Shown here in pieces: positions 11,413-53,140 of a DNA stretch of 64,000 nucleotides. Origin of the DNA: Alentia gelatinosa (taxonomy: Eukaryota; Annelida; Polychaeta; Phyllodocida; Polynoidae). Under the pieces are notes generated by a model. The model made no database searches and was not told where the DNA came from. It was given only the letters and a program-made list of their open reading frames with translations. The stretch lies in NCBI GenBank assembly GCA_950022655.1, contig OX465587.1:35335153-35399152 (forward strand). Direction: 5' to 3'. How positions within the stretch are numbered: the first letter of the stretch is position 1; every line of letters begins with the position of its first letter. A program made the position numbers and the translations under genes.

Positions 11413-11677
11413 TGGAAATACAATCGGATGGCACCGCTAATTGCAGATTTACACCGATAAAAAATTTCACAAAGCTCAACACTCCGTCTTGGTTCGGCAA
11501 TGCTGGATCTATGGAGGCGCGGTAACACCCAGCGCCACCTAGCGTTAGAATACGGGCGATGAACAGTGTTGCCCTCTGGTGTATTCGGTGAGGAAATATA
11601 TAACCTTATTATCGTATATATTAAGGTAGACATTAATATCTTCTCCTCTTTGCTCATAAAATTAAAATAAATTTTAT

Positions 11678-12309
11678 TTGCCCAAACTCTGTCTTCTACT
11701 TTTGTGTTGCGGGTATAGGGGTAATGGTAGGAGTCGAGATTACGTCCTCAGTACGAACAGTGGTGCAAAAATTGAACGAATCTGTAGTGTGCTACTAAAC
11801 GCTATGAGGAGTGCGAGGCATGGTGGTGTTCACTACAAGGCAATCTATGTTATGTGCGGTATCAATGAGATTACCTACAAGAACAAGCATTACATAGGAC
11901 TGAGACGAGGCACACCAATGGATATTGGAGAAAGAGTTCTAGATCGTCTGAAGGACCTAAAAGCATTGGTGCACAGTATGTATCCAAATATCCCAGTGAT
12001 TATATCAACGGTCTACGGGGTTTGCTTGAACAAAGCGAACCATAGTACAGAGGTTTTTGCTGACCAGCTAAGACTCAATGACGTGATCAGTTGTTGAATG
12101 AAGGTATCGGACGAATGAACAGTGAGTAAGGGGTCTACACGCTCTACATAGCGAGGGAGGTGCATCGCAACCGCCCTGGGAGGGACACGCGTATCCTCTA
12201 CGAACGTCTCTACGATGGCACGCATCCAATTGATGAACTGCAAGCACGAATCGCTAGACTACTGTCGGATGTGATTGACAAAAATGTAGTGATGGGGTGC
12301 CACCAGTAA
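11678..12309 (+). pseudogene. SGNH/GDSL-type hydrolase domain of LINE-F ORF1 (decayed)
   Basis: The frame at 11678-12097 contains VMCGINEITYK (block III, G-x-N-E) and a typical helix-strand run, DLKALVHSMYPNIPVIISTV. A second frame continues to the catalytic-type block V, YDGTHPIDEL, near 12208-12240 (D-x-x-H), which matches LKDGVHPTTEL of LINE-G. The GDS nucleophile block is missing or lost upstream. At least one stop or frame change breaks it near 12094. Esterase domains of this family are known in ORF1 of CR1-like LINEs and may act on membranes; the function here is inferred. Confidence 0.6.
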
Positions 12310-12445
12310 TCAAGTAAGATCTTTCCATATCCCAGTATTGGTAATATGTGCAATAGTGAATACTGCTCCTGCTGTGATACACTGTTCCATATTCCAGATT
12401 GAACATGTACCAAGATTGCATGTTGTGAATCAGACGCACTGAACT

Positions 12446-12599
12446 GAGTCAAATGACCGGAACAGTAATCTGAACATAATGTCATGAGTCAAATGACCAG
12501 GCATAAGTAAGACATGTAATGATAAACTGAGTCAAATGACCAGACATGATATAAGTTCGCACTCTTTGTGACTAACACACTGAACCGAGTCAAATGACC
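12446..12599. repeat. Four spaced copies of GAGTCAAATGACC in LINE-F
   Basis: The 13-mer occurs at 12446, 12486, 12529 and 12587, usually preceded by CT or CC and followed by GG or AG. A fifth identical copy lies in the 3' UTR at 15949-15961. A looser relative, GAGTCATGTGACC, is at about 16176. Confidence 0.8.
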
Positions 12600-12654
12600 G
12601 GAACAGTAAATGACATGATATTAGACTAAATACAATATGATGATACTAGGTCAC

Positions 12655-12725
12655 TGGCCCATGGACATATAGCTATATATACCATATTACGCCCATGGAT
12701 TTATATCTATATATACCATATTACG
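12655..12725. repeat. Two tandem ~34-bp AT-rich units
   Basis: CCCATGGA...CTATATATACCATATTACG is repeated twice, with a few differences. It resembles the AT-rich block at 8792-8960. No coding sense. Confidence 0.7.
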
Positions 12726-13088
12726 CATTATAAACACTATCAAAGAAAGATATGAAGAACTAATAAACACTGAAGAGCTGAAATGCAGTGATTTAATAAT
12801 AGCTTTGCTACCACCTGATAGACGTTTGATATCTATTATTCAGAAAGATATATCTCTTTTTTGTGTATTATTATTCTTTGTGTTTAGCACTGTAATTATG
12901 CCCGGAGACATTTTGTTCACTGAGCTCAGTCTATTGAAAGTGCCTGGAGGCCCTTTAGACTGTGTACCGCACTGTATTTGCATATGTAATCTGTCTACCT
13001 TGTGTGATGTCTATTACTGTAGTACTGTTATATTTTGTATGTTTGTATGCCATTGCCCTAATACTAGGAGTATGTCCTTGGTACCTAT
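12726..13088 (+). other. Spacer of LINE-F with a hydrophobic open frame
   Basis: Between the tandem units and ORF2. The frame 12805-13098 is T-rich and hydrophobic (LFCVLLFFVFSTVIM). LINE-G has a hydrophobic frame in the same place (45811-46257). Low-complexity base composition is the likely cause. Confidence 0.3.
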
Positions 13089-15933
13089 ATGTCATTAATC
13101 ACACCTGAAACCCTTCAGAAAAGAAAGGGAGATAAATTTGTAACTGCAAATGTTCATAGTATTTTTAGGAGACTTAATGATGTTAAGAAGTTATTTGAAT
13201 CAAGTACGTATGTGATTATTACAGAAACTTGGTTAAGGGAGGCCTATGACAGTAATATGATAAATATACCAAATAAGACTATTTATAGACAAGACAGAGA
13301 TTACGTAGAAAAAAAGACGGGTGGGGGGGGGGGGGGGGGGTAGCAATGATGATTAATACAGAAAAAAGCCCTTATGTAAGGCGGATAGATAAGTACTGCT
13401 TCTCTACTATAAAATATGAGATATTAACACTTACCGTATCAGAACTGAGTCATAAACAACTACTATTGATCTCGCTTTACCGACCACCACATAAAGATGT
13501 AGCCTCCTGTTTTGAAGTGCTACAGAAAATTATCTCAGATAAGGAATTCAAAAGAAGGGAAATTTGGATAATGGGGGATATGAATATTAATAGTAATTTC
13601 CCAAATAGTGTAAAATACTCTCATGTAAAAAGCTTTTTAGCCAGAAACAAATTACAACAAGCAAAAACCCTAGATACTTATTTCCATACATTTGGCAAAA
13701 GCAAGATAGATCACATATACACCAATTGCCGATTTGTTATGGACACAGGTAATATCAATTTGTATGCTACCGAACATATGCCAATTTATGCAATACGAAA
13801 GTGTAAAAAGGTAACAAAACAACTGACTAAGATAACAGGACGAAATTACAATAGGCTGGACTGCAAAAAAATGAATGAATACATGACGAAATACCATACT
13901 CCAGATGATATGGCTGATCCTAATCTAAATTTTGAGAAGTATGTGAATGAAAACTTAGATAAACACTCCCCTGTTAGGGAATATGTTATTAGGATGAGGA
14001 ATAATATCGAGTTACCTAGACCTTTAAATAAGCTAATACGGAAAAGAGCAAAATATCTCAAGGATCTGTATAGGTCTGCACAGAATAATAACAGGGACTT
14101 GCTGGTTGAAATCAGACGGCTAAGAAAGACGATACATACAGGCATCAGGGAATATACCGCGGAAATTATAAAGAACGAAATGATGAATAACAGCAAAATT
14201 CCCAAAATTTTTTGGAGATCCATAAATAATCTGTGGAAACCTAAGGAGAGTAGTATACCCTTCCCCTTTGAAGAAGGTGAGAATGCAGATACGCTGAATC
14301 AGTATTATGTATCAGTTGGTAAGAAGATCACTAGTCAATGTCAGAATCTAGAAAGGGATGACGCTATTCGTAGGGAAAGGGTGGATGTACAAGGATTTGC
14401 TTTCAATGAAACTACTCGTGTGAACGTAGAGAAAATTATCAAGGGCCTGGATAATGATAAAGCAACTGGTGTACCACACCTAAAGATAAAATTATTAAAA
14501 ACTCTGTTATTTAATAATACAGGTATAATTGTTACCATGTTTGCAAATATGTGTAAGAATAAACTGTTTCCTGACTCGTTAAAGCGGGCGATTGTCACTC
14601 CCCTACCCATGGGTGGAGATATGAGAGTTTTTTCGAACTGGAGGCCTATTAGTGTCTTGCCAACTATGGCAAAGATATTGGAGAAACTTATCCATGGACA
14701 GCTTATGAAATATTTACTAGAATATGAAGTTATTAACGGCAATCAATATGGATTCATGCCTGGGAAATCGACAACCCAAGCTATTTTTCGTGTGATGCAA
14801 CAACTATCAGACTCTTGGAATGAAAATAAGTATAATCTGTGCGCATTTATTGATATGCGTAAAGCGTTTGATTGTGTATGCCATGAACAATTATTTATTA
14901 CTTTAAAAAGAATAGGATTGTCAGATGAAGCAGTCTGCTTGTTCAGGTCATATTTGTCAAATAGGACACAAGTTGTTAAAACAAATGGTAGCATCAGTGG
15001 GGAACTTGTTCTTGAATGTGGTGTACCGCAGGGTTCGGTTCTGGGTCCTGTACTCTTCATAATTTTCATTAATGATATATTTCAAATAGTAGATTACACC
15101 AAACCCACCATGTACGCAGACGACCTTGTCCTTGTTGCAAGTGGAAGGGAAGCAGACAAAGTTCGAGCTAGAATGCAACATGATCTGAATAAGATACAAT
15201 TATGGTTAAATAGAAAAAAATTAGTAGTTAATGTTGATAAATCTAAGCTTATGTGGGTGGGAAAGTGTATAACAGATGGAATTACCTGCCATATAAATGG
15301 AACTGCATTAGGAATAGTGAGTACCTACAACTATCTAGGTGTTATTCTAGACGAAAAAATGAACTTAAAGCACAGTTAAATAAGGTATTGGCGGATGTTC
15401 GAAAGAATAACTTTAAGTTTAGGAAATTTCGACACGTATTAACAGACAAAGCCGCAGTATCTATATGTAAGCAGATGATACTCCCTAGGCTAGAATATGT
15501 GGACTTTGTATATTTTTTAAGCAATAAAAGGGAAAGACAGAAGTTGCAAACTAGCCTAAATCACTGTCTGCGCATTGCTGTCAGTTGCCCAAGGTGGGTT
15601 CATATGAGCAATGAGGAACTGCTTAGAATATGTAAGATAAGAAGTCTGGCATATAGGAGAGCCCTGCATCTCTGTATATGTATACACTGGTGGAAAGATG
15701 ATAATGATAATATAACTGATTTGGGGTTTAATAGGACCAGAATGAATGATAAGATTGTCTTGAGAACGGGCAGGCCCAGAACTGAGTGGTATCACAAAAG
15801 TCCTCTGTATAGGGGAATGCTCCTGTGGAATCTGTTAACTCGAGAAATACAGTTAACACAAAAAAGGGGATTTAAAGATAAGGTAAAGAGATATTTGTTG
15901 CTAGAGAACATTGCCAAGGAAATACCAGAATAA
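13089..15933 (+). pseudogene. LINE-F ORF2: AP-like endonuclease and reverse transcriptase
   Basis: The ATG at 13089 opens the endonuclease (NVHSIFRRL, ITETWL with the catalytic Glu). The frame changes in an 18-G run at 13323-13340 and continues from 13346 with LISLYRPP, GDMNIN, SKIDHIYTN and TEHMPIYA (where SDHxP is usual). The RT follows: NWRPISVLPTMAKILEKL, QYGFMPGKSTTQA, IDMRKAFDCVCHEQLF, GVPQGSVLGPVLF and the active site MYADDLVLV. A second frame change in an A-run near 15356 leads to the C-terminal part (15253-15933 frame; LLWNLLTREIQL). The domain order and motifs fit the Jockey/CR1 group. Apart from the two homopolymer shifts the protein is nearly complete, so it may be young or mis-sequenced. 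Confidence 0.8.
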
Positions 15934-43250: not shown

Positions 43251-43380
43251 TTGCAATGGCGTTGTAAGCAGCGGGTGCGTGTGTAAATCGGAGCGCGGCT
43301 TTTCCTGATATCGATGGGACATTCTAATATTTTTGGAACTCTATGCCAACAGACAGACGTGTAAACATACTTGGATCAAT

Positions 43381-44760
43381 ATGGCTGGGAAGAATCGACA
43401 CAAAAAGACTGATACTCGCTCTCAGAGCAAAACTGAAGATATCGACACTGAACAGGTGGGTGCATGCGATACTGATCAGCCATTATCACGTGTGAAGGCT
43501 ACACGTACCGCCCCTCTGACCCAAGCAGCTAACAACACGGCTATAGTGAACAAAATTAACGAAATAGAAGAGAGGCTGAATGAACATGACCAAATCATAA
43601 ACTCGACTGTTGATGTTCTGAATGTAATGAAAGAAAAGTTAGTGAAGAGTGACAAAATCCAGAACAACTCTTTAGATCTTATTCAGAAACTAAATGACAA
43701 GCTTGACAAAGCGAACAACACTGTTGACGGGTTGGAACGTACTATGTATACTCAGGGTGAAGAAATATCGGAGCTGAAAGAAATTGCTGACGAAACTACT
43801 AAAGTATCTGCCACTATTAGTGAAAAAGTATTGAGAATCGAGACAGTACAAAAAAGAAAGATACTGATAATAGAGGGGGTGCCGGAGAATCCAAACGAAA
43901 ACTTGAGGGACTTGTTTACACAACTTCTTAATGATATTGGATTGGAAAGCACAGCAGCAGTAGTAGAATCAATCTACAGAAGAGGTAAACCGGGTCAATC
44001 GAGAATTCGTTTGATCTGTGTACACCTGTCAAGTCAAAATGCTAAAAGTCAGATTTTCTTAAGTATAAAACGCCTGAAGGGTATTGATAGGTGGAAAAAA
44101 GTCACATTGTCAGACGATCTGTCACCTGAGGATCGAAAGAAAAATCAAGATCTTAAAACAATCAGAACTGTTGCCGCTAAGAAAGGTATTCATTGTCAGA
44201 TCAAAGGTACCAGGATTGTGATAAAGGGCAAAAGTTATTCATATGAGGAGGCCTCAACTCTTCCTGATGGTATAGGCTTACAAGACATCAAAATGCTACA
44301 TAATGAAAAGGGAATCTTTTTTCAGAGTAAGCACTCCCCCTTTAGTAATCTATATCCTAGTGATATAGTTTACAAAGGGAAACGCTTCAGTACAGCCGAG
44401 AAGTGTTACCAGTATGAATTTGCAACAGCTGAAGGTCAAAGTGATATAGCCAGTTGTATTCTCAAGTCGAATGACCCGGCGGAGGCACTTTACCTGTCTA
44501 GACCAATCAAGGAGACAGTGGGCCGACTCCAAAATTGCACACATGACAGCCATTGTTAACGCCAATTTCTCCCAGAACGAAACATTGAAGGCTACACTAC
44601 TGAGCACGGAGAAAATCTTTTTGAAGCAACTAGAAACGACTTCTAGGGGTGCGGTTTTCACTTGGGTGAAGTTGATAAATGTACACCAGCAATGATCAAA
44701 AGAAACGAACTGGGAAAGATTCTAGAACAGGTGAGAGACACTTTCCCTACTGGTGTGTAA
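43381..44760 (+). pseudogene. LINE-G ORF1: coiled coil + L1-ORF1p-like RRM + NADAR/YbiA-like domain
   Basis: Starts at the ATG 43381 (MAGKNRHKK). Residues about 50-150 form a long coiled coil (INEIEERLNEHDQIINSTVD...). About 155-300 match the transposase_22/L1 ORF1p RRM and C-terminal fold (KRKILIIEGVPENPNENLRD; LSDDLSPEDRKKNQDL). From 44311 a NADAR domain begins: FFQSKHSPFSNLYPSD, GKRFSTAEKCYQYEFA, ILKSNDPAEALYLSR. Two frame changes (about 44520 and 44600) separate its second half: IVNANFSQNETLKATLL, then ENLFEATRND and RNELGKILEQVRDTF. This order matches bacterial YbiA over the whole domain. NADAR proteins act on N-glycosidic bonds of NAD/ADP-ribose-related or flavin-precursor substrates. 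One in-frame TAG at about 44644. Confidence 0.8.
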
Positions 44761-44797
44761 ATAGCCAATTCACTGTCCGCGCTGTTGGCATAGAGGT

Positions 44798-45605
44798 ATG
44801 GCAGGTCACTCATCTCTCAACCGGTGTTACTCAACAAAATTATCTAGAGACATACAGAAGCTGGAAGATATTTTAATATGGACGTGGAGCCCCAGTCCCA
44901 ATCATGTAGTAATTGGAGACTCCAGGGTCAGTAGATTATATGAAGCAATATCTCACCAAAACGACAAAATGCAAAAGTTTAATGTTTACACATTTCCTGG
45001 TGCTACGCTACGAGAGTTAGTTGTATTGACTGACAATCACTTGACACATCAACCCAATTCCATAGTATACATTGTAGGAGGTGCCTGTGATATCACAAGT
45101 AAAATACCGGATCCAATAAATCGAAGAAAATTTCTGTGAGAAATGAACTGGGATACTGAAGAAAAACTATTTCAACATCTAAAGACGTATGCTACAACTG
45201 GTTATGACTGGCTCGAAGATAGAAATCCCAAGTCGCGCTTCGTCATATGTCCTACACCAGCAACCTATCTCCCCCAATGTTTGCCTAATTTGTATGATAA
45301 TAAGGACGATGTTGAAGCTGAAGATAAAGAGAAAAGAAAGGAACTCCTTCAACAAAAAACAAGAACTTGTCACAAATGCGATTTTGAGATTCAACAAAAG
45401 TTTAATCAACACAAATGCACGCCATAGTATTCGTTTCCCCTGGTTGGTGAACAATATCCACAAATGGAGAAAAGGGAAATATCACCACTATTGGGCGCTA
45501 CTAAAGGACGGTGTTCATCCAACTACTGAACTGTTGGACCTGTGGGCGAAAGAATTCTTAGCTACTTTCGAAAAAAATATCCCAGTAACTGTATCAACAT
45601 GGTAA
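44798..45605 (+). pseudogene. LINE-G SGNH/GDSL-type hydrolase domain
   Basis: Block I with the nucleophile Ser: HVVIGDSRVSRLYEA. Then GATLRELV (block II-like Gly) and VYIVGGACDITSK (block III; the usual Asn is Cys). The first frame stops at 45137; 45143-45427 continues (YDWLEDRNPKSRFVICPTPA), and a third frame, 45189-45605, ends with WRKGKYHHYWALLKDGVHPT, giving the D-x-x-H of block V. A Cys-His cluster, CHKCDFEIQQKFNQHKC, lies between. It could be a lipid or carbohydrate esterase. It may once have been continuous with ORF1. Confidence 0.7.
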
Positions 45606-46243
45606 TCTCTTTATTTTTATACTTCCCTGGCTTCCCTGGAATTTTATCTGTTGTTACCTATAATGGATAAAACCCAGATCACCAGGTCTCTAATTTGTAT
45701 CTAATAATAGGTAAGGGTCGAATAAATCATTAATTTATACTGACTAAGAGTATTAGAGAAACCTGGCAACACTAACTCTGTATCTTTTGGTACCTATAAA
45801 GGATACCTGAATGGTGACTCCAGGGTGGCAGGGTTTATGGGTTCTATACTTTTCTACACGCAGTGACTTGCCTCCTGCTCCTGTCGAAATAAGCGATGAT
45901 AACGAGGTAGGCCCAACCAATTTATTTATTATTATCAAATTTTATAGCTATATGGATAACAATCTTAGTGGAAGGAGGGGCCGCCAAACGGTCCACCACT
46001 TATTGCTGCTCATCTTGATTTTTAAACTTGATATGACGGCCTTAGTGGCCAAAGTCTTATCATGTTATTTTTTTGTTTTTGTTTTCTTTATTTATCACAA
46101 GTATGATGATACGCTATTTGCTTTCAAATGTTTTTCTGATGACCAGGTTACAGACATTTTGTTGATTGTTATATTTTTTGGACTAATGTATGGGAATCCA
46201 GATAGGATACATGAGACCTCAGTGGAATTGTTTTTGTTTATTG
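45606..46243 (+). other. Spacer of LINE-G with a hydrophobic open frame
   Basis: The frame 45811-46257 (148 residues) has two hydrophobic stretches (HHLLLLILIFKL; VLSCYFFVFVFFIYHKYDD). It sits between the hydrolase and the endonuclease, like the hydrophobic frame of LINE-F. It may merely reflect T-richness. Confidence 0.3.
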
Positions 46244-49132
46244 TCAATGATACTTGATAGTGATGAAGAGGTAGCCCAACAAAGAGGCTGTAAGATTGTT
46301 CATTTAAACATAAGAAGTTTGAGATCAAAATACGAATCTCTTGTAGTAAATGTTGCTAAATATAACTGGGATATAATTACTATCTCAGAATCATGGCATG
46401 TTGTTGGCGATGCAGAAGAATCATATTAGATAAAAGGCTATAACAAATATCGTTTAGATAGAGAATGGAAAAAGAATATTCGTGATAAAAAACCAAAGAT
46501 AGGAGGTGGCCTTTGTTGCTATGTTAAAAATGGATTGCAAGCTGATCATATTAAATTTGGACATCTAAATAAGAGCATAAAGGATATTGAAATTCAGATC
46601 CTTGAGTTTAAAACACCCAATGGTAACTCGTTTGTGCTGTGCAATGTATATAGACCAAATAATGGTAGTACCCATGAATTTATCAAATACCTCCACGAAG
46701 TTGTAGATAATCTAAGATCGATTCCAAATTGTGACTTTGCATTTATTGGCGATTTTAATATAAATGTAAGTAAACCAACATCTCCGATAGGCGAAAACTT
46801 GTTGCGCGAAATGGAATCAGTAGGTTTAATTCAGCTAATAGATGACTATACAAGCCTATCAGATAACAGCTCAACTATAGATCTTATATTCTCGACAGGT
46901 AAATGTCTCTCCAGGTCTGGGGTCCTAACATCCTCCCTAAGTGATCATCAGTTCATTTATATGATAAGGAAACACCTAAAGAGGATTGATATCAAAAAAG
47001 AATTTTATGGAAGATCCTATGTAAACTATTCAAAAACCGATTTTCATAAATACTTATCAAACTATAATTGGGAAGATTTTTATGTTTCGGATAGCTCTGA
47101 TTATAAATGGGATACAATTATTGAGGCTATAAATGGTTACTTAGATATAACCTGTAAATACAGAAAGTTTCATATTAAAAAGACAAGTGAGCCATGGATG
47201 TCTAGAGAGCTAGTGGAACTAACACGTGATAAGAATATATTATTGAAAAAGGCCAGGAAAACACTAAGACCACATGATAAAGCCCGAGCTCGACTGGCAC
47301 GAAATCATACAAACAACGCTATCAAACAAGCAAGGCAACAATACACACTGAATGAACTTTATATGAATCTAAACGATACAAAAAAGTTATGGCGTAATAT
47401 TAATGGTATTCTACCTGGTTCTGTTTATAAACAAAAAAGAGACATCCATTTAAAAGATAAAGAGGGAAATTTTATTGATATTCAAGATAGTGCTTCCTAT
47501 ATAAATCAATTTTTCAGTAGGATTGGTGGGACCTTATCGGAAGAGATGAATATCCCCTGGTTACCAAGAGATGATAAAAACCAAGAATTGCTTATAAACT
47601 TCCAAACAGATATACCAGGTTTACTAAAAGTTGCAAAAGATCTTGATATCCACAAACAATCAATGCTGGATGGGATACCTTCAAAAATTTTCAAAGATGC
47701 TCTACTGATTATCCCAGAAGTCTTTGTTGAGTTATATAATGTTGTATTTAGCTCTGCCTGCATTCTGACTTCATGGAAACTTTCAATCATTGCCCCTATA
47801 CCTAAAGGTGGGGATCCTTTTCAGGTAACGAACTTAAGGCCAATCACTTTGTTACCCATTGTCAGCAAGGTTATGGAAAAGATTGCACATGAACAATTGT
47901 ACACATTTCTGAATGATTGCAATGTCTTGACAAGTACACAGTATGGTTTTCGTAAAAGTTTTTCTACCGTTGATGCTATTGCTAAATTAACTGACCAGAT
48001 TTTACTAAATAGAAACATGGGAAAGGATACAGTGGCCATTTTTATTGACTTTGCCAAGGCATTTGACACCGTGAACCACAGGATACTATTACAAAAATTG
48101 GAATTTTATGGGGTTGTTGGCATAAATTTAAAATGGTTTCAAAATTATTTAACTGATAGGATACAAAAAGTCAAGGCTAATGATCATCTCTCAGAGGGTA
48201 TGCCTGTGGTTCACGGTGTCCCACAAGGATCGATTATGGGTCCTCTCTTGTTTATTTACTATGTAAATGACTTATGTAAAATGATTACGCAGATGAACTC
48301 ACTTATGTATACAGATGATACTGTATTGTATTATCATGGAAACTTGGACATAAATTCTTATAATCTTATACAAACTAATCTTGAAAACGTATATACATGG
48401 TGCGTTCAGAACAAGTTGTCTATAAATATTAAGAAAACTTAATACCTAATTTTTTCAAGTAAAAAGAAGAAACGACAATTCTCAAAGACATTTTGTATGA
48501 ATAACTCCCAATTAATTGATGTAGTATCGTATAAATACCTTGGTATGTACTTGGATGCACAACTTGATTATAGACACCACTTTTCTTCTATTATTAAAAA
48601 CATGTCTTATAAAATTTATCAATTGACTAGGATGAGATCGCATATGTCGCAAAATACTGCACTCCAGATTTATAAAACAGCTGTGTTGCCCTATATGGAT
48701 TATGGAGATGTTCTGTTTGCAAGTAGCTATCAAAAATATTTAGACAAATTACAAATTCTACAAAATAGAGCGCTGCGAGTTTGTCTGAAAATGCCAATTT
48801 TGACTCCAAGCATAAATCTGCATAAGTTAGCTAATGTATCTTTACTCAAACAGAGAAGAGAGGCACATATTTTAAATTATATGTTTAAACGCTCTCAGTT
48901 GTCCCAGTTTATAGTAAGTGACCCTTTACCCACTCGGCTCTATATGGTCCCAGTATTAAAAAAATTCAAACCAAACTGTTCATCTTATATGAGGTCTCTA
49001 CAATATTATGGTAGTACCCTGTGGAATGCTCAACCTGCTGATGTTCGAAATGTGGAGACATATAGAGAATTTAAATCCTTAACAAAAAAGAAATGTCTGG
49101 CTTTATTAGACAACATTCCATATGAATTGTAG
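46244..49132 (+). pseudogene. LINE-G ORF2: AP-like endonuclease and reverse transcriptase (two in-frame stops)
   Basis: ATG 46244, then IVHLNIRSLRSKYESL, ISESWH (catalytic Glu), a TAG at 46427, and the same frame on: NVYRPNNG, IGDFNIN, STIDLIFS, LSDHQFIY. RT: NLRPITLLPIVSKVMEKIAH, QYGFRKSFSTVDAI, IDFAKAFDTVNHRILL, GVPQGSIMGPLLF, and the active site MYTDDTVLYY (YTDD in place of YADD). A TAA at 48440 interrupts, and the same frame resumes to 49132 with YKYLGMYLDAQLDYRHHF and the C-terminal ALRVCLKMP...LWNAQPADVR. Only two single-base nonsense changes stand between it and an open frame. Confidence 0.85.
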
Positions 49133-51272: not shown

Positions 51273-52029
51273 ACTCACCGCCAAAGCGAGAGCTAACAAT
51301 GACACTTGAAGCGTCGCTGTGGAGGTGGAGGTGCCGCTCGCTATTGGGTAAATGGCGCAATGGAATCAGGTCTACAGCAAGTATACAAATGGGATATCAA
51401 GAAGAAGGCATTTTATTACATGACATGTGGTATGAGACTTACCTTAGTTTGTGAATGTGAGATCGTTCTGCCGATCACTGTTGGAGACGGATTTCTGGTG
51501 TGGACTCTTCCAAGGTCATTGTAGATTTGGTAGATTTTCCTCCCTTTGCATCACCACCCTCAAATGAGGTGCTTGACCATATCGCTAATTGCACAACAGG
51601 ATTTACCCGTGACGGTTGGCCTAATTTCAAATCTTTCTTGGAGAGGAGTTGCAAAAATCGTTTATTCACTGAACATTCGACATTACATTGTCGTTCTTCC
51701 ACGTCCGTGAGTGTGTGGGAAACGTAACATAAACGTGAATTTCATGAAGTATATATACATAATGATGGGAATCAATTGTATGTAGATGATACATCGAGTT
51801 TTGTTGATTTGATTCAGATTTAGTCTGAGCATTTGGATCTTAGGGATGTACATCAATATATCGTGGGATAATTATAACACGGGTGTCTATGGAGATATGG
51901 CGAGGTTCTGTTTGGTCCTAAATAGACCTAGGCAAGTAAATTATCGAACATGCTTTTATAGCGTTCAGCTATAGCTTACATATTGGTAAGTTCTCTTATT
52001 TTTCGTAGTACCTCTTTTCTAAATAATTT
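51273..52029. other. Unassigned DNA with a short open frame
   Basis: The frame 51500-51727 (VDLVDFPPFASPPSNEVLD...FTRDGWPNF) looks coding-like and may be a broken piece of a gypsy Pol spacer, but I cannot establish this. Confidence 0.25.
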
Positions 52030-53140
52030 CTATCCACTAGACAATTGGGTTTCCCTGGACAGGGAGTTCCAGATTCTTAAACCTATGTAGATTGATGAGT
52101 TCCTATGCCTATCAGTTTTTGGTCTTTTAAGGTAAATATTCGCTCTAACCATTTGCCCTGTTTCTCTAGTTTCTACATCTTGTCCAACAGTACTTATACA
52201 CTTACTTAAAATTAGATTGCGTATCACACCTAGTAATAACATCAGCCTTCGCATCTCAGGTCTTTGAACATTACATAGCGCTTGTAGATCATCATTACTG
52301 ATATAATGTCCATCGTTAAATGCTCGTTTGCCTATTGCTAATCTGAGACCTCTATTTATACTAACCTCCATTTTCCTCTGTATCTTTTTAGAGGTACCCT
52401 CAAGTAAAAATGAACAGTGATCTGTTAACGGAAGTAAACATGTTCTAAGGATACTCAGTGCAGTGTTACTTTCTAGTTTTAGTATAAATAGCGGTCTTAT
52501 CTTGCAACTTCTTTAATAAGATGTTTGCATGGGACTCAAAATTTAATGAGTAGTCGTTTATTGCGCCCAAGTAGTTCATTTCACTAACTACTTCGATCTC
52601 CTTCCCGCACATAAAAAGTTTTCCTTTTCTAATGTTCTTTAGTCTTTTCTTAGATCCGTGATACACTGCTCGAGTTTTAGAGACATTTAATGATAGCTGG
52701 TTGGTGGATTCCCAATTTTCTAACTTTTTTATTGATGACTGCATAAGTTGCTCGGTTGCAGATACAAGATGGGCGGAGGTGACAATGACTAAATCGTGAG
52801 CATACATCAAATAAAACATAGAGTTATCATCATCAAAAACAAGATCATTAACGAATATAAAAAAAAAAAGCGATCCTAAAATTGAACCTTGTGGTATACC
52901 AAATCTAACTGAGAGGTCCCTTGATGAGTGTCCAACGTATTCAGTGTGACATTTTCTATTGTCCAAGTATGATTTAAACCATTAAATCAAATTATTACTG
53001 ACCCCGGCTTCCTCCATCTTTATTAGAAGGATACGGTGATCTACGCAGTCGAAGGCCTTAAGGATGTCAACATAAATGGCCATAGAAATAAGATTTTCAT
53101 CTACTGCTTCGCTAATGTGCTGCACTGATCAATGAGGACA
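52030..53140 (-). pseudogene. Non-LTR retrotransposon RT fragment (LINE-H)
   Basis: On the minus strand: IYVDILKAFDCVDHRILL (about 53090-53035), a TAA, then frame 52966-52466 with VRFGIPQGSILGSLFFFIFV, MYAHDLVIV (YAHD where YADD is needed, so dead) and SLNVSKTRAVYHG. A second frame, 52371-52030, gives the C-terminal RLMLLLGVIRN...LRIWNSLSRETQL. The endonuclease is missing. Motifs place it in the Jockey/CR1 group, but it is not a copy of LINE-F or LINE-G. Confidence 0.75.

Follow-up and report, generated by a model that had tools for sequence, protein, structure and literature searches.

The LINE at the centre of this study is a decayed member of a large animal LINE group, some families of which were recently mobile, and its ORF1 protein ends in a NADAR domain. 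It lies in the window, that is, the whole stretch of 64,000 nucleotides of Alentia gelatinosa DNA that was analysed. Judging from profile searches, alignments and predicted folds, this ORF1 architecture occurs in many copies, the NADAR domain is under purifying selection and keeps Glu43 and Glu125, Lys50 has been lost in the window family, and the module is common to elements with distant RTs. We infer that the domain may erase ADP-ribose from LINE RNA or cDNA.

ORF1 and the decayed LINE in the window

The element occupies 43381-49132 (+) and its parts are listed in Table 1. In intact copies ORF1-NADAR is followed by an SGNH-hydrolase-like ORF and then by an ORF for the endonuclease (EN) and RT, three ORFs in all. 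In the window ORF1, the second ORF and ORF2 are all broken, and the copy, as its frames read, looks dead, NADAR having once been present there. The open frame of ORF1 is 43333-44559 (+), with the first likely ATG at 43381.

Table 1. Parts of the decayed LINE, in window positions
Feature	Position	Strand	Basis
ORF1: coiled coil, L1-type RRM and CTD, first part of NADAR	43381..44559	+	ATG at 43381 to end of open frame
L1-ORF1p-like RRM plus CTD	43870..44304	+	HMM of 12 relatives, E 1.9e-70; fold seen on homologues
NADAR piece 1, profile 1-67, ORF1 frame	44320..44544	+	HMM E 3.8e-20; Pfam E 1.1e-4
NADAR piece 2, profile 65-101, other frame	44483..44653	+	HMM E 4.6e-9; Pfam E 1.7e-4
NADAR piece 3, profile 113-142, C-terminal end, frame of piece 1	44647..44736	+	HMM E 2.9e-7
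Second ORF, SGNH/GDSL-hydrolase-like, overlapping broken frames (GDSR, GGxCDIT, DGVHPT)	44798..45602	+	identity to L050
Endonuclease part of ORF2	46241..47164	+	43% to L052; Exo_endo_phos_2 E 7.8e-8
RT part of ORF2, at least one internal stop	47168..49087	+	49% to L052; RVT_1 E 1.8e-33

The NADAR domain of the window copy is interrupted by two frame changes and an internal stop. Residues 330-394 of the ORF1 frame match Pfam NADAR (22.9 bits), and the shifted ORF at 44471-44695 matches the next stretch of the same profile (22.3 bits), each frame taken singly being below the Pfam cut-off of 35.1. An HMM trained on 45 NADAR domains from this genome finds three significant, collinear pieces, which lie in two frames and span profile positions 1-142. 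The closest relative among the loci examined (L048), which is 90% identical over query residues 221-375, has the whole NADAR in a single frame, and the intact relatives L010, L014, L021 and L041 reach 115, 113.5, 106 and 79.6 bits against Pfam NADAR (PF08719), all above the cut-off. All 12 sequences aligned for the window family match NADAR too, with 81.6 bits for the first. The predicted fold of the domain is that of YbiA/NADAR. The first-pass annotation, made from the letters alone, had placed a NADAR/YbiA-like domain fused to a LINE ORF1 at 44308-44760, and its coordinates, the fusion and the identity of the domain are all borne out by the Pfam and HMM matches in the window and by relatives far above the cut-off.

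The same annotation had called the RRM L1-ORF1p-like, which agrees with the predicted fold of homologues. In the modelled ORF1 of a homologue (another record), the coiled coil, RRM and CTD match human L1 ORF1p, and the carboxy-terminal third matches NADAR structures. Foldseek and VIA-align gave matches of homologues to 2yko, 2ykp, 2ldy and 2w7a, and the window RRM is homologous to theirs by HMM. A search with the RRM sequence against Pfam and PDB found no L1 ORF1p match, and the likeness of the RRM to L1 ORF1p is one of predicted fold only. With a coiled coil, RRM and CTD in ORF1, and EN and RT encoded by another large ORF, the element is a LINE with a type II (L1-like) ORF1. Unlike the type II protein of human L1, which consists of coiled coil, RRM and CTD, the ORF1 described here has NADAR added, and its sequence does not match the L1 ORF1 family in Pfam or PDB. 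NADAR follows the CTD directly in the window family and in an L1-like trio of loci (L012, L015 and L021); a long linker separates the two in the other three-ORF families.

The second ORF of the window is 51-57% identical to that of the intact relative L050 over 44798-45367 and 45300-45602. In 18 aligned second ORFs, DGxH is present in all, as is the GDS serine (the ORFs were picked by a pattern requiring that serine), and the third-block position is mostly N, with C in six and T in one. Four second ORFs were scanned against Pfam: two gave Lipase_GDSL_2 matches below the cut-off (E 0.0007 and 0.0015) and the other two gave no GDSL match. These proteins share SGNH-type motifs and a LINE setting with the type IV ORF1p that contains an SGNH esterase (ZfL2-1; CR1, L2, RTEX), but the SGNH-like protein is here a separate ORF beside an RRM-bearing ORF1, within one element.

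The window contains remains of other LINEs as well. A second decayed element at 11666-15930 (+) has SGNH-like pieces at 11666-12094 and 12130-12306 and an RT related to that of L025, and a third fragment at 52015-53128 (-) has an RT related to L013/L014. Beyond ORF1 of the main LINE, an HMM search of the window found no other NADAR or RRM.

Copies, selection and active-site residues

The genome searched comprises 1.23 Gb in 101 contigs. A first look gave 3136 NADAR candidates, of which 150 were scored; all 150 exceed the Pfam cut-off (E <=1.4e-25), and they include a stand-alone gene-like ORF (L001/L011) and an odd protein (L020). The window ORF1, used as query, gave 2962 candidates and 106 scored matches. 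In 97 of the 106, the window among them, the match runs to query residue 350 or further, which is 40 residues or more inside NADAR, and the remaining nine stop between residues 258 and 336. Most of the scored copies of the LINE, to which the first-pass annotation had looked for a check, thus reach into the domain at the same position. Stretches of 9-10 kb around the top NADAR matches contain both an ORF with NADAR and an RT in 18 of 20 cases, the two without an RT match being L011 and L020.

Purifying selection on the domain is indicated by an uncorrected pN/pS of 0.09-0.25 in 12 NADAR pairs, hand-picked from a larger pair set, with a highest upper 95% limit of 0.36; the choice of open frames biases this estimate toward constrained copies, and as most pairs are close to saturation at synonymous sites, the true ratios are lower. 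The NG86 ratio is 0.03-0.15 for pairs with a computable dS > 0.1. The expectation of a dN/dS well below 1 is thus upheld in the chosen pairs, the first seven of which belong to the Lys50-less window family, where purifying selection acts too.

Some families have moved recently: L016 and L017, which lie on separate contigs between unlike flanks, share 7259 bases with 99.74% identity, and L003, L004 and L005 are about 98.5% identical. Some copies seem to have been amplified through tandem segmental duplication rather than transposition: at G000:C6:11617364-11678017, window-family ORF1 matches start at 11617364, 11647136 and 11676908, an exact spacing of 29772 bases. The truncated ORF1 of L048 is immediately preceded by what reads as a Penelope-like RT fragment, in the initial 540 bases of the minus strand.

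Active-site residues are numbered here as in the NADAR of P. nicotianae (PMC11543638), and all eight fit the alignment with a single offset of two. The count covers 37 of the 45 domains; L002, L003, L004, L005, L007, L008 and L011 (repeat fetches or identical sequences) were left out, the stand-alone L001 was treated separately, and the near-identical pairs L016/L017, L006/L019 and L024/L025 were kept. The 17 domains of the window family come from 20 stretches, three of which (L030, L033 and L037) have no complete domain because their frames are broken. Glu43, Glu125 and Trp133 are conserved in all 37 domains and Trp89 in 36. Glu43 and Glu125, the latter on the last strand, are also present in seven of the seven ORF1s from other records, as in the YbiA subfamily.

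Position 50 divides these domains. Outside the window family it is lysine in 19 of 20 own-genome domains and arginine in one, and it is K or R in six of the seven ORF1s from other records. In the window family it is A, F, M, H or L in every domain (Lys 0/17). Its counterpart in the E. coli C7 NADAR, K95, is reported to be essential, with arginine partly tolerated (PMC11543638), and the window family thus does not have the lysine of an active guanine-ADP-ribose hydrolase. It is a NADAR by fold and by its Glu residues, not by the lysine. To go by this substitution, the family may either act on a different substrate or bind without efficient hydrolysis, and removal of a modification is therefore less certain there than in the Lys-bearing relatives.

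The stand-alone NADAR at L001:1501-1950 (+), probably a host gene, is a 242-residue open frame scoring 180 bits. It has Glu43, Lys50, Arg79, Trp89, Glu125, Asp130 and Trp133, with Cys in place of Arg93.

Relations of the RTs and of the NADAR domains

The RTs associated with ORF1-NADAR are of two distant kinds. Those of L021 and L012 are strongly L1-like, with 250 and 328 bits against human L1 ORF2p, and L015 is a third such locus. The window ORF2 matches human L1 ORF2p weakly (48 bits, E 6.1e-12), so that the element, whose RT is not close to L1 ORF2p, falls outside the strongly L1-like group and does not fit the L1/Tx1 clade, and the ORF2 of L010 has no L1 ORF2p match at E 0.001. In an RT tree built without a reference clade set, a very long branch with 100/100 support separates L012, L015 and L021 from the window element and the rest. 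From their motifs we read the latter as candidate members of the CR1/L2/Jockey group.

The NADAR domains themselves were compared in a tree of 59 sequences, which leaves out the domains excluded from the residue count plus L006, L017, L034 and L047. One side of a 99/95 branch holds 33 rows from this genome (32 LINE domains and L020) together with P0121-P0123, and the other side contains the genome's stand-alone gene and 18 further stand-alone NADARs. The ORF1 proteins P0124-P0127 fall outside the LINE NADAR group, P0125 and P0126/P0127 being placed, in the best tree, among the stand-alone NADARs on long branches. A single capture for all ORF1 NADARs is compatible with the data (AU p 0.256). 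Separate capture of the NADAR of the L1-like elements from a stand-alone gene was considered and rejected (AU p 0.0024, for a group named after seeing the tree).

RT and NADAR identities were compared over 19 loci, two of them L1-like; L009, L015 and L024, whose RT pieces are short, and loci lacking a paired NADAR were left out. Among the non-L1 elements the two identities correlate with r 0.87, as expected from joint descent. Across the split between L1-like and non-L1 elements (L012 and L021 versus the 17 others), mean identity is 0.21 for the RT and 0.35 for NADAR. The RRM profile of the window family matches the ORF1s of L012, L015 and L021 at E 2e-14 to 2e-13, and SGNH remains lie directly behind ORF1 in L015 and L021; an SGNH fragment was looked for in L012 and not found. 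The sharing of RRM, NADAR and SGNH remains despite distant RTs suggests that the 5' module has been exchanged between LINE clades, which fits the reticulate evolution of ORF1 reported for the Jockey superfamily (PMC4120745). Alternatively, the two sides could go back to a very ancient common ancestor, the 5' module having changed more slowly.

The odd protein at L020:224-3343 (+) is encoded by an open frame of 1040 residues. It combines an LRAT domain and long repeats with a weak match to a glycine zipper, and its carboxy-terminal NADAR falls inside the LINE clade. It has no RRM match, and no RT match was found in 9.9 kb. The host may have taken this NADAR from a LINE, or a LINE may have taken it from the host.

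Earlier reports and candidate functions

The first-pass annotation knew of no description of this combination, but a NADAR domain in the ORF1 of Crassostrea gigas LINEs (several Tx1 families; Repbase) is already in print, in one sentence that suggests RNA processing (PMC12477816). The oyster and worm elements have in common NADAR in a LINE ORF1 and the idea that RNA intermediates are processed, and L012, L015 and L021 are probably of the same kind as the oyster elements, the Tx1 label being our own reading. In contrast to those, the RTs of the window element and of most loci examined match L1 ORF2p weakly or not at all, and the window family lacks Lys50. The oyster account, in the portions of the paper at hand, comes without ORF architecture, selection or residue analysis (PMC12477816). 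The same source describes NADAR in a Gypsy Pol of Ectocarpus, likewise a capture by a retrotransposon, but in an LTR element, in another protein and another host, and with almost exclusively bacterial relatives (PMC12477816).

Among papers using the phrase "NADAR domain", in a mostly open-access literature set that holds no preprints, PMC12477816 is by title the only one about transposons, and no further paper on NADAR in LINEs is among the matches listed. Transposon terms do not occur in the accessible parts of PMC11543638 and PMC9503650. As far as found, the non-L1 three-ORF class, the selection, the Lys50-less class and the module exchange are new. Compared with DarT1-NADAR antitoxins, YbiA and the P. 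nicotianae NADAR (8bau), the domain is here fused to a retrotransposon RNA-packaging protein, and in the window family it is without Lys50.

Relatives outside this genome were sought in protein and viral data. A set of 5.8 billion proteins, queried with the NADAR region of the L014 ORF1 (three-ORF class), gave no match among 846 candidates. A NADAR profile matched 223 of 1017 candidates, the named ones among the 120 matches listed being stand-alone animal or bacterial NADARs. A profile of the window family matched eight of 5140 candidates in a protein search, seven of them ORF1-like; in viral contigs it gave 34 pattern matches and no relative.

We propose, at somewhat less than an even chance and lower still for the Lys50-less window family, that the NADAR of ORF1 is an RNP-bound eraser serving counter-defence. 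As ORF1p coats the LINE RNA, NADAR would be held on the RNP, where it could release ADP-ribose, by cleaving its N-glycosidic bond, from guanines in the RNA or the nascent cDNA (or from the RNP). The mark would be put on by host ADP-ribosyltransferases, and its removal would keep the LINE template readable. The Lys-bearing families would be ordinary NADAR hydrolases, and the window's family would have shifted in one of the two ways given above. Guanine de-ADP-ribosylation is reported for bacterial, phage and eukaryotic NADARs (PMC11543638; PMC11125620), and for the NADARs of positive-strand RNA viruses of invertebrates the authors propose reversal of host ADP-ribosylation (PMC9503650). Shellfish are reported to have guanine-N2 (DNA) ADP-ribosyltransferases with a proposed immune or antiviral role (PMC8053099). 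The genome contains PARP-type ADP-ribosyltransferase domains, with 26 matches among 43 candidates counted exon by exon. A search of it for DarT found no match, which counts against the eraser model, and a Scabin-like search found none either, but there the control was silent as well. PARP13 is also called ZAP. Human retrotransposition is reported to be restricted by ZAP (PMC4441479).

We consider it rather unlikely that NADAR instead serves as a nucleic-acid or ADP-ribose binding module for which catalysis is not needed, adding to the hold of the CTD on RNA or anchoring the RNP to partners that are ADP-ribosylated, with the catalytic residues lining a ligand pocket. The loss of Lys50 in 17 of 17 window-family domains under persisting purifying selection, and the lack of a long linker between CTD and NADAR in this family and in the L1-like trio, are consistent with such a module. 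The overall pattern, however, is enzyme-like: all 37 domains counted have Glu43, Glu125 and Trp133, and all 20 that lie outside the window family have Lys/Arg50.

Since NADARs also act on small riboflavin-pathway intermediates (PMC11125620), the fold does not fix ADP-ribose as the substrate. Instead of a nucleic-acid mark, the domain could hydrolyse a small molecule in the vicinity of the RNP (derivatives of ADP-ribose, breakdown products of NAD, or immune signals), as is argued for many viral NADARs in the case of small ADP-ribose derivatives (PMC9503650). We think this quite unlikely, as fusion to an RNA-packaging protein would presumably be costly for an enzyme with a soluble substrate. Finally, the frameshifted window copy, below the Pfam cut-off in either frame, might by itself point to a chance in-frame neighbour or to a host NADAR gene inserted into a single LINE copy. 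This is effectively ruled out by the 97 of 106 scored matches, by the 99/95 branch separating the LINE NADARs from the genome's own stand-alone gene, by purifying selection, and by seven proteins from other records with the same fusion.

The eraser can be combined with the other findings in a single account, which we hold only tentatively and think somewhat improbable as a whole: the NADAR of ORF1p would counter an undescribed animal defence that puts ADP-ribose on retroelement nucleic acid (compare the proposals for viral NADAR and Macro domains), the ORF1-NADAR/SGNH module would have passed between LINE clades as a unit, and the window branch would have dropped the phosphate-binding lysine for a new substrate. 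If the ORF1 NADARs are working hydrolases, nucleic-acid ADP-ribosylation would be implicated in the struggle between retrotransposons and the animal genomes that host them, a role of which we know no earlier demonstration. ORF1-NADAR is suited to assay, in that its substrate chemistry and catalytic residues are known and intact copies exist. Also, some of the NADAR proteins catalogued in animals may be ORF1s of transposons and not cellular enzymes.

Two long single-frame proteins with PARP domains, at L054:34-2310 (+) and L055:1-1950 (-), the latter frame with two PARP matches, contain what we read as NFX1-type zinc-finger repeats. About 220 bases separate the end of the L054 protein from the ORF1 match of the NADAR LINE L037 that follows it, probably through chance insertion.
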